Shown here: piece after piece, positions 3,435 through 14,854 of the stretch
How positions within the stretch are numbered: the stretch's first letter is position 1
How the letters are laid out: every line of letters starts with the position of its first letter
Translations under genes and position numbers: made by a program
Notes under the pieces: generated by a model
The model's database searches: none
The model's input: the letters and a program-made list of their open reading frames with translations, nothing else
What the model was told of the DNA's origin: nothing
Assembly (NCBI GenBank): GCA_903825575.1
Contig: CAIKAW010000103.1
Span: 1-40,306 of the forward strand
DNA: 40,306 nt
Source of the DNA: an uncultured bacterium
GTDB lineage: Bacteria > Actinomycetota > Actinomycetes > S36-B12 > CAIKAW01
Direction of reading: 5' to 3'

Positions 3435-3479
3435 ATGCTTTCGACACTCGTAGTAGTACCGATGGGGCCCGTCGCCTGA
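3435..3479 (+). CDS. ilvL: ilvB leader peptide (14 aa, Val-Val-Val)
   Basis: ATG to TGA encodes MLSTLVVVPMGPVA. Three consecutive GTA valine codons lie at 3450-3458 and leucines at positions 2 and 5, but there is no isoleucine. It sits between the promoter and a rho-independent terminator ahead of ilvB, the classic layout of ribosome-mediated attenuation. Leader peptides with terminators upstream of ilvB are known in Corynebacterium, Mycobacterium and Streptomyces from comparative genomics. There is no Shine-Dalgarno sequence, and the -10 box is six bases upstream, so it is probably read from a leaderless mRNA. The ilvL symbol is used by analogy. Confidence 0.8.
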   Translation: MLSTLVVVPMGPVA

Positions 3480-3500
3480 CGTCCACCGGTGATGCGCCCC
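3464..3500 (+). promoter_or_regulatory. Predicted antiterminator hairpin of the ilvB attenuator
   Basis: GGGGC (3464-3468) pairs with GCCCC (3496-3500). After one C/C mismatch, C3470 pairs with G3494 and GTCGCC (3471-3476) pairs with GGTGAT (3488-3493) using two G-U pairs. The loop is 3477-3487. It uses the 5' arm of the terminator at 3497-3500, so the two folds exclude each other. A ribosome stalled at the first Val codon would leave 3464 onward free; a ribosome at the leader stop would cover this region and let the terminator form. Confidence 0.6.
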
Positions 3501-3529
3501 CCTGCCTGCAAGTGGCCGGGGGGTTTTTT
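3497..3529 (+). terminator. Rho-independent terminator of the ilvB attenuator
   Basis: Six C (3497-3502) pair with six G (3518-3523). After a T/C mismatch, GCC (3504-3506) pairs with GGC (3514-3516) around a seven-base loop. Six T follow at 3524-3529. It lies 17 bases after the leader-peptide stop and 87 bases before ilvB. Confidence 0.85.
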
Positions 3530-3616
3530 ATTGCTAGGTAGAACTACTCGTAGGTAAGGCAAGGACACTGCAAGGCCCGCACCGCCGGGGCAACCCGGCC
3601 AAAGCAAGGACATGTG

Positions 3617-8993: not shown

Positions 8994-10921
<1,928 letters not shown>

Positions 10922-12035: not shown

Positions 12036-13139
12036 ATGGCCAACGTCGATCTAGAACTCATCAGCTTGCGTCCGGGTCCCGGTCTGCCCGCTGAAAAGCG
12101 CGAGGAAATCTTGCGCGACCCTGGATTCGGTCGAGTGTTTACGGACCACATGGTCTCGATTCGCTGGTCGGTCGACGGGGGATGGCACGATGCCGAACTG
12201 ATTCCGTATGGACCTTTGACGCTGGACCCTGCCACGAACTTCATTCACTACGGCCAGTCGATCTTTGAAGGGCTCAAGGCTTACCGGCATCCGGACGGCG
12301 GCATCTACACGTTCCGACCGAAAGCCAATGCGGCCCGGTTCCAACGTTCGGCGGCTCGCTTAGCGATGCCGGAGTTGCCAATTGAGTTGTTCATTGCCGC
12401 TGTCGAAGCGTTGGTGCAACAGGACGCTGTGTGGGTGCCGGATGATCCCGAGAAGTCGCTCTACTTGCGGCCGTTCATGTTTTCCACCGAGGTGGGCTTG
12501 GGTGTGCGGCCCGGAAACGCCTATCAGTTCTTGTTGATCGCTTCTCCTTCTGGGGCTTACTTCCCGCGCGGAGTGAAGCCGGTGTCGGTCTGGTTGTCTG
12601 AGGAATATGTGCGAGCTGCCCCCGGTGGTACTGGGGAGGCCAAATGCGCTGGCAACTACGCAGCCTCGCTGATCGCTCAGGCCGAGGCGACCGCGAATGG
12701 TTGCGATCAGGTGGTTTGGCTTGACGCCATCGAGCGACGTTGGGTCGAGGAAATGGGGGGCATGAACCTGTACTTCGTGCTCGGAAGTGGCAAGAGCGCC
12801 CGCCTGCTTACTCCTTCGCTGACGGGCACGCTGTTGCCCGGAATCACGCGCGATTCCTTACTTACTCTCGGCGGCGATATCGGTCTGGTGACAGAAGAGG
12901 GCCGGATTGATGTCCAGGCCTGGGAAGCGGGCTGTGCTGACGGTTCAATCACCGAAGTCTTCGCTTGCGGCACTGCCGCGGTTATTACCCCGGTCGGCAG
13001 CGTTAAGTCGCGCTCGGGCGGCTGGTCGGTGGGGGCTGGTGAGACCGGACCGGTTACGGCAGCTCTTCGACACGCGTTGCTTGAGGTGCAGACTGGCCGG
13101 TCCGAGGACGTCCATGGCTGGCTGCATCGCCTCGTGTGA
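12036..13139 (+). CDS. ilvE: Branched-chain amino acid aminotransferase IlvE
   Basis: IlvE is a PLP enzyme (fold type IV) that aminates the 2-oxo acids of Val, Leu and Ile with glutamate. It has 367 residues, typical of the larger actinobacterial/eukaryotic group. PLP Lys is K203 in [12 protein letters not shown]. Other signatures are INFGQ-like [16 protein letters not shown] and the [11 protein letters not shown] and [16 protein letters not shown] segments near the phosphate site. It is 12 bases after leuB and may be expressed both with leuB and from its own leaderless promoter. The cimA leader region follows directly. Confidence 0.96.
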
Positions 13140-13150
13140 CCTGCGTATGG

Positions 13151-13156
13151 CACAAT
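13151..13156 (+). promoter_or_regulatory. Possible -10 box of the cimA leader
   Basis: CACAAT lies exactly six bases before the leader ORF ATG, the same spacing as the TANNNT boxes elsewhere in the window. The first base does not match and no -35 is clear. Read-through from ilvE is also possible. Confidence 0.35.
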
Positions 13157-13162
13157 CGGGCC

Positions 13163-13189
13163 ATGACAGTTCGGCAGATCATTTTCTAG
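13163..13189 (+). CDS. cimA leader peptide (8 aa, Ile-Ile)
   Basis: ATG to TAG encodes MTVRQIIF, with two consecutive isoleucine codons (ATC ATT) at 13178-13183. It lies just after ilvE and before two hairpins and a terminator that precede cimA, the isoleucine-specific gene. No Shine-Dalgarno sequence is present. The match between the codon content and the end product of the downstream enzyme is the main evidence. The ORF is very short, so chance is possible. Confidence 0.6.
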   Translation: MTVRQIIF

Positions 13190-13213
13190 CGCGTCGACCA
13201 TTAGTCGACGCGC
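13189..13213 (+). promoter_or_regulatory. Perfect 10-base hairpin in the cimA leader
   Basis: GCGCGTCGAC (13189-13198) pairs with GTCGACGCGC (13204-13213) around a five-base loop. It begins in the last base of the leader-peptide stop codon, so a ribosome on the Ile codons or at the stop would block its 5' arm. Its freed 3' arm could pair imperfectly with 13222-13230, inside the following terminator (seven of nine pairs). Confidence 0.65.
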
Positions 13214-13247
13214 CGCCCCTACGCATCCGCGAGGGGCGTTTTCATTT
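13214..13247 (+). terminator. Rho-independent terminator before cimA (attenuator)
   Basis: CGCCCCT (13214-13220) pairs with AGGGGCG (13232-13238), extended inward by CGC/GCG around a four-base loop with one bulge. T-rich TTTTCATTT follows. Only 17 bases, holding the ribosome site, separate it from the cimA ATG. No promoter fits there, so cimA transcription must pass through this terminator. Confidence 0.75.
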
Positions 13248-13264
13248 CCCGACCGGAGAAGCAG

Positions 13265-14854
13265 ATGCGACCGCAGGATGCGTTCCACGTCTACGACACC
13301 ACCTTGCGCGACGGCGCACAGCAAGAGGGCCTGAACCTCTCGGTCGCCGACAAGTTAACAATTGCGCGCCACTTGGATGCCCTCGGCGTGGGCTTCATCG
13401 AAGGTGGTTGGCCCGGCGCCAACCCGAAGGACACTGAGTTCTTCCGTCGCGCCCAGACCGAGCTGGTGTTGAAGAGCGCAACGTTGGCTGCTTTCGGGGC
13501 TACTCGCCGCCCTGGTGTTGCTGCAGCCGATGATCCGCTGATCATCGCCTTGCGCGACAGCGGTGCATCGGTGGTGACGCTGGTTGCCAAAGCGCATGAC
13601 CGTCATGTGGAGTTGGCGCTGCGAACCGACCTTGCCGAAAACCTCGCCATGGTCCGAGACACCATCAGGTTCTTGCGCGACGGCGGGCAGCGAGTGTTCC
13701 TTGATGCTGAGCATTTCTTTGACGGCTACCGCGCCAATCCGGCGTATGCCTTGGAAGTTATTCGCGTGGCGGCCGAAGCCGGTGCTGATGTGGTCGCCCT
13801 TTGCGACACCAACGGGGGGATGCTCCCGAACGAGTTAGCGGACGTCGTCGGTGCTGTGTTCGGTGCGACCGGCGCCCGACTTGGGATTCACTGTCACGAC
13901 GACACTGCTTGTGCGGTAGCCAACACTCTTGCGGCTGTGGACGCTGGGGTTACGCACGTTCAGGGCACCGCCAATGGGTACGGCGAGCGCAGCGGCAACG
14001 CAAATCTGTTCAGTGTGGTAGCCAATCTGCAACTCAAACAAGGTCGTAACGTGGTGCCGGCCGAGTCACTGCGCGACATGACGCGCATCGCTCATGCGAT
14101 CAGTGAAACGACTAACGTCGCGCCCGATCAACATCAGCCGTACGTTGGTCTTTCGGCTTTCGCTCACAAGGCGGGGCTTCACGCCAGCGCAGTTAAGGTT
14201 GATCCAAACCTGTATCAGCACATTGATCCGGCAACAGTCGGTAACGACATGCGAATGCTGGTCTCCGACATGGCCGGCCGGGCCTCGATTGAGATGAAGG
14301 GCCGCGAACTCGGCTACGACTTGTCCGAAGATCGCGACGCCATCACGAGGGTGATCGACCGAGTGAAGTCGCTTGAGTCCGGCGGATACACGTTCGAGGC
14401 TGCTGACGCATCCTTTGAGCTGCTGTTACGTGATGAGGTTCTTGGACATCGCGAGCGGTACTTCACCGTCGAGTCCTGGCGAACAATCGTCGAACAGCGA
14501 CCGGACGGTTCGGTAGTCAGCGAGGCAACAGTCAAGATCCACGTCGCGGGCCAACGCTTCGTTTCGACGGGGGAGGGCAACGGTCCGGTTAATGCACTCG
14601 ACAACGCCCTGCGCAGTGCGATCACGACTGTGTACCCGGAACTTGCTGCGCTGGAACTGGTCGACTACAAGGTTCGGATCCTTGACGGCGGCGGCGGTAC
14701 GGCGTCGGTCACTCGGGTCTTGATCGAGACCACCGATGGGACCACTGAGTGGGACACGATCGGGGTACACGAGAACGTCATAGCTGCGTCGTGGTCAGCG
14801 TTGGAGGATGCGATTTCCTACGCCTTGATGCGTTCTGGACGGTCGCCGATCTGA
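13265..14854 (+). CDS. cimA: Citramalate synthase CimA
   Basis: CimA condenses pyruvate and acetyl-CoA to (R)-citramalate, starting a threonine-independent route to isoleucine. It has 529 residues with an HMGL-like barrel: YDTTLRDGAQQEGLNLSVADK at the N-terminus and metal-binding IHCHDDTACAVAN. The segment ANGYGERSGNANLFSV is also typical. The C-terminal part is a LeuA-type allosteric domain (STGEGNGPVNALDNALR). It belongs to the branch sharing N-terminal features with homocitrate/2-isopropylmalate synthases, but the length and FIEGGWPGANPKD motif point to CimA. ATG 13265 has GGAG upstream. The Ile-Ile leader and terminator upstream support a role in isoleucine synthesis. The substrate assignment is from family features only. 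Confidence 0.9.
   Translation: MRPQDAFHVYDTTLRDGAQQEGLNLSVADKLTIARHLDALGVGFIEGGWPGANPKDTEFFRRAQTELVLKSATLAAFGATRRPGVAAADDPLIIALRDSGASVVTLVAKAHDRHVELALRTDLAENLAMVRDTIRFLRDGGQRVFLDAEHFFDGYRANPAYALEVIRVAAEAGADVVALCDTNGGMLPNELADVVGAVFGATGARLGIHCHDDTACAVANTLAAVDAGVTHVQGTANGYGERSGNANLFSVVANLQLKQGRNVVPAESLRDMTRIAHAISETTNVAPDQHQPYVGLSAFAHKAGLHASAVKVDPNLYQHIDPATVGNDMRMLVSDMAGRASIEMKGRELGYDLSEDRDAITRVIDRVKSLESGGYTFEAADASFELLLRDEVLGHRERYFTVESWRTIVEQRPDGSVVSEATVKIHVAGQRFVSTGEGNGPVNALDNALRSAITTVYPELAALELVDYKVRILDGGGGTASVTRVLIETTDGTTEWDTIGVHENVIAASWSALEDAISYALMRSGRSPI

Follow-up and report, generated by a model that had tools for sequence, protein, structure and literature searches.

The window, a stretch of 40,306 nt from an uncultured member of the Actinomycetes, carries an ilvE gene (12036-13139, +) followed on the same strand by cimA (13265-14854, +). 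The latter encodes a citramalate synthase of 529 aa, has homologues in relatives that are full-length in most of them, and is the gene which we propose to be regulated by the element lying between the two. This element opens with the -10-like hexamer CACAAT (13151-13156, +), recognized by its position relative to the leader start in homologues. Seven bases 3' of the hexamer begins an 8-codon ORF, MTVRQIIF-stop (ATG ACA GTT CGG CAG ATC ATT TTC TAG; 13163-13189, +), with adjacent isoleucine codons at 13178-13183; an Ile-bearing ORF occupies the equivalent position in 100/100 aligned homologues. Within the leader stop codon starts hairpin 1 (13189-13213, +), a perfect 10-bp stem formed by the arms GCGCGTCGAC (13189-13198) and GTCGACGCGC (13204-13213) around a CATTA loop. 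It is directly adjoined by the predicted terminator stem-loop (13214-13238, +), whose U-rich tail TTTTCATTT (13239-13247, +) reaches 13247, the T-run being conserved in alignments A1 and A4. Both hairpins were assigned on the basis of fold and covariation in homologues, and the terminator also on junction length. The gap from the terminator end to the cimA ATG (13265) is 17 nt and contains a Shine-Dalgarno-like GGAGAAG (13255-13261, +). The ORF with its Ile-Ile pair, the hairpin beginning in the stop codon, the terminator and the 17-nt gap had all been described in the original prediction and lie exactly where it placed them. The leader RNA folds at -39.2 kcal/mol (z = -6.1), and 0/200 shuffles folded equally well. 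Scans of 13001-13400 for consensus promoters and terminators gave no match; a bulge and a broken U-tail probably kept the terminator from being recognized. Rfam returned no match to 13050-13350 at E-values up to 5, where the sequence does not qualify as a T-box either, only tRNAs in a gathering-threshold scan of the window, and nothing credible at 16 homologous loci.

The covariance search with homologues that the original prediction had put forward was performed with R2, a model built from 29 cimA leaders of the same order with the window left out. It recovered the cimA leader of the window as the sole strong match in the whole 2.2 Mb genome, with 59.7 bits and E = 5.8e-9 (a rough value, as are all E-values of R2 and of R1, the model built from cimA leaders of the same order). 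The next-best matches had E > 2, one of them being the ilvB leader of the window (3467-3532). CimA, or a fragment or relative of it, is present in 60/60 relatives searched. We found the element 5' of cimA in 43/58 same-order loci, for which upstream regions were read, and, using R1, in 52/68 loci of the class and 59/79 CimA loci of named Actinomycetes, the sequences counted being related and not independent; locus L109 (G262) was left out. Named R1-positive genera include Streptomyces, Kitasatospora, Nonomuraea, Planotetraspora, Actinomadura, Amycolatopsis and Kutzneria, as well as Pseudonocardia, Kribbella, Micromonospora, Cellulomonas, Demequina and Motilibacter. Genome-wide, R1 matched 132/198 genomes of the class, other branched-chain genes included; outside the class matches were fewer and weaker, and those inspected lay at ilvB and a leuA-type gene. 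Neighboring ilvE and cimA genes that are free of the element are mostly <= 27 nt apart, chiefly in small-genome lineages. Such lineages (L018-L023, L078, L082-L086, L187-L201) possess neither the leader nor most of the ilvE-cimA gap, and apparently lost attenuation with genome streamlining.

Isoleucine codons occur in 100/100 aligned leaders and account for 26% of leader residues. A start codon 22-45 nt 5' of hairpin 1 was detected automatically in 98/100, while leaders L090 and L120 proved to be longer and Ile-bearing when read. Homologues that keep the hairpins and lack the ORF, which the original prediction had named as evidence against itself, number 0/100 among the aligned leaders. An Ile codon is located shortly 5' of hairpin 1 in all leaders, the last one at 8 nt in 66/98, and the share of AUU among Ile codons is 50% in the leaders vs. 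10% in the corresponding cimA ORFs. In turn, the stop codon lies at -2 in 54 leaders and at +10 to +23, i.e., within hairpin 1, in 28. As read from the alignments, it is the position of the Ile codon, and not that of the stop codon, which is conserved. Upstream, the motif [TC]ANN[CA]T ends 5-9 nt 5' of the leader start in 67/94 homologues, in comparison with 0-7 in shifted control windows; the extended -10-like consensus is TGTGGCAnACT, ending 7-8 nt 5' of most leader starts. A -10 at this distance would suit leaderless transcripts such as have been described for other leaders of actinobacteria (PMC8079986), and the cimA leader ORF is probably translated in this way, from an RNA starting at its own ATG.

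All 100 leaders form exactly two hairpins, with a junction of 0 nt in 88/100 and of 1-2 nt in 12/100, and nearly the same two-hairpin layout, with junctions mostly of 0-2 nt, was observed in the ilvB, leuS and ilvA modules described below. In the 100-leader alignment, 94.4% of pair cells hold standard pairs, both hairpins covary and double changes occur in 7/12 pairs. This level of covariation was reached by 0/500 shuffles and slid control structures scored far lower. At the base of hairpin 1, the GCGC is virtually without change across the leaders, while the upper stem varies.

Although built on cimA leaders, R1 also matches leaders of ilvB, leuS and ilvA, and the codons of these leaders differ with the gene. 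The ilvB modules carry LVV, VVL and similar codons (Val/Leu), the leuS modules of several families LL/LLL (Leu) and the modules of leuA-type genes (L174, L360) LLL. The ilvA modules of family f23 (L263-L273) have, in 11/11 loci, leaders ending in AIT-stop, VIT-stop or similar (Ile), and we know of no report of such a module at ilvA (threonine dehydratase). Moreover, a module with II/III precedes a gene for a small ACT-domain-like protein in two f25 genomes (L168, L169). The sensor codons change so as to match the pathway, and we regard this as the best evidence for codon sensing, since a swap of codons with the gene is predicted by codon reading and not by a nascent-peptide or operator mechanism. 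In the related M. tuberculosis ilvB1 leader, changing LVVI to AAAA abolished induction (PMC13236596). However, replacement of candidate regulatory codons in the S. coelicolor ilvB leader was without effect, and the leuA result is at odds with classical attenuation, both as reported in PMC1262725; these results count against reading the element as a codon-sensing attenuator.

We consider it highly likely, in line with the original prediction, that the element attenuates cimA transcription by a ribosome-mediated mechanism that senses isoleucine; conservation, covariation and natural codon swaps strongly support this reading, whereas promoter activity, translation, termination and the direction of regulation are predicted from the sequence. 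A promoter in the ilvE-cimA gap would give rise to a leaderless RNA, the first codon of which opens the 8-codon leader. As long as Ile-tRNA suffices, the ribosome would finish the leader and depart, hairpin 1 and the adjoining terminator would form, and transcription would stop at about 13247, so that cimA is very probably shut off when isoleucine is plentiful. When isoleucine is short, the ribosome would wait at the Ile codons, its leading edge (about +4, as estimated from known footprints) resting on the GCGC base of hairpin 1; termination would be weakened and cimA made.

How a stalled ribosome might weaken termination can be conceived in two ways. A classical trp-type switch, the general kind of which is known, would have the stalled ribosome free the 3' arm of hairpin 1 for pairing with terminator bases 13222-13230 as an antiterminator, as the original prediction suggested. 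This part of the prediction is not supported. The duplex proposed in the window is weak (-4.4 kcal/mol) and not conserved, and by static folding, blocking the entire 5' arm of hairpin 1 leaves the terminator of the window with a P of 0.98. No conserved antiterminator, the mark of a classical trp-type attenuator, was found in the 100 leaders, and a covariation scan revealed clear excess pairing only inside the two hairpins. When cognate and non-cognate duplexes were compared, both hairpins, serving as positive controls, gave p 0, whereas the hairpin-1 3' arm showed no cognate preference for the terminator (B:T5 p 1.0, B:T3 p 0.5). Family f2 (L032, L033, L040, L052, L055) speaks for the switch in that a strong alternative pairing is possible there once the 5' arm is fully blocked. 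Yet, this requires wider coverage of the arm than is expected from an Ile-stalled ribosome, as static folding still gives P(terminator) 0.67-0.99 in f2 with coverage to +4; we rejected the f2 pairing as proof of a classical switch, for most of the 5' arm must be covered. Altogether, the trp-type switch seems unlikely. Alternatively, hairpin 1 could stack on the base of the terminator and help it to close, and an Ile-stalled ribosome sitting on GCGC would remove this help, with no antiterminator needed. The adjoining hairpins with their near-fixed spacing, seen in 100/100 leaders (0-2 nt) and mostly at ilvB, leuS and ilvA too, suggest such assistance, which also agrees with the invariant basal GCGC under a variable upper stem and with the Ile codon usually 8 nt from hairpin 1. 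On the other hand, the terminator stem is predicted to be strong even when unstacked (mean duplex about -18 kcal/mol), and losing the stack may therefore make too little difference. Hairpin assistance is a possibility that we put forward tentatively. With slightly greater reserve, it might be generalized to a modular, antiterminator-free actinomycete attenuator, in which hairpin 1 abuts and supports the terminator, a ribosome paused on the sensor codon disrupts hairpin 1 at its base alone, and the module, fitted with a codon for the pathway in question, serves cimA, ilvA, ilvB, leuS and leuA-type genes.

Two further readings would dispense with attenuation. As the element lies 3' of ilvE in the window, it could be an ordinary ilvE terminator next to an unrelated short ORF, but 59/101 leader-bearing cimA loci are without ilvE in their 5' flanking sequence, most of these flanks being 1.2-1.5 kb long. 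This already contradicts the idea and indicates that the element belongs with cimA and not with ilvE; furthermore, the element is absent where ilvE abuts cimA, and the leader is universal in the aligned elements and Ile-rich. We judge this explanation very improbable, and equally so the idea that a regulator protein uses the inverted repeat as its DNA operator. In the window, the two arms do make up a perfect palindrome at the DNA level, but above GCGC they change in a compensating manner, loop lengths vary widely, a terminator adjoins the repeat and the codons swap with the pathway.

The proposed isoleucine attenuator of cimA is of a known kind. Actinobacterial ilvB attenuators (Seliverstov et al., 2005, PMC1262725; S. 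lividans ilvL, PMC8079986; M. tuberculosis ilvB1, PMC13236596) resemble it in having a short or (at cimA, by prediction) leaderless leader that contains codons for the pathway and is followed by hairpins and a terminator, and one covariance model matches both; they differ in their codons (Val/Leu(/Ile) vs. Ile-Ile) and gene, cimA being absent from those papers. Streptomyces leuS attenuators (PMC1262725, PMC8079986) have the same layout, and the same model matches leuS leaders in several families, but they carry Leu codons before a tRNA synthetase gene and an antiterminator has been described for them, which is not supported at cimA. Like these ilvB/leuS-type attenuators, the cimA element combines a leader ORF with pathway codons, a terminator with a U-tract and membership of a homologous module. 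The LEU element 5' of leuA (PMC1262725) also comprises a short leader peptide with branched-chain codons and has a counterpart in the window (10877-10921); unlike the cimA element, it forms a pseudoknot without a typical terminator. The trp and ilv leaders of E. coli are ribosome-mediated attenuators in which codons for the end product are followed by hairpins and a terminator. The cimA element shares this order, but departs from the E. coli type in that no conserved competing antiterminator was found, in its predicted leaderless 8-codon leader and in its abutting hairpins. The elements of Seliverstov et al. (2005) cover trp, cys, ilvB, leuS, leuA and ileS, and the S. lividans reannotation (PMC8079986) eight leaders, cimA being absent from both. 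In agreement with the original prediction, we found no report of a cimA attenuator in the open-licence literature, beyond which one may exist; the kind of switch is known and its occurrence at cimA is, as far as that search goes, without an earlier report, including in Streptomyces. By this reading, cimA, whose product acts first in the citramalate route to isoleucine, would be under specific control across most Actinomycetes families sampled. Codon sensing can readily be tested with the swaps that nature has made among homologous modules, and with no antiterminator found, a question on actinobacterial attenuation that was noted already in 2005 becomes directly testable.

As for isoleucine physiology, the IlvA regulatory domain was not found in the genome of the window (95% complete) nor in 58/60 genomes searched, and the IlvA core had no match in the former at 1e-15. 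With no biosynthetic-type ilvA found, citramalate synthase is likely the entry to isoleucine, which fits the Ile codons in the cimA leader.

Three genes clustered in the window, namely ilvB, leuA and cimA, have leaders of their own with Val/Leu, Leu and Ile codons, respectively. The ilvB leader region (3435-3532), of the known actinobacterial kind, consists of the ORF MLSTLVVVPMGPVA-stop (3435-3479, +), a Val/Leu counterpart of the cimA leader, followed by hairpins and a terminator, with a weak R2 match at 3467-3532. The leuA leader (10877-10921, -), preceded by TACCCT, is the Leu counterpart and of the leuL/LEU-element kind described in PMC1262725. The LeuA protein (8994-10856, -) contains a repeated Gly/His/Ser-rich insertion in its C-terminal part. 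CimA of the window, in turn, lies nearer to homologues from outside the order (f26, 80%; f22, 77%) than to those of the same order (61-72%).
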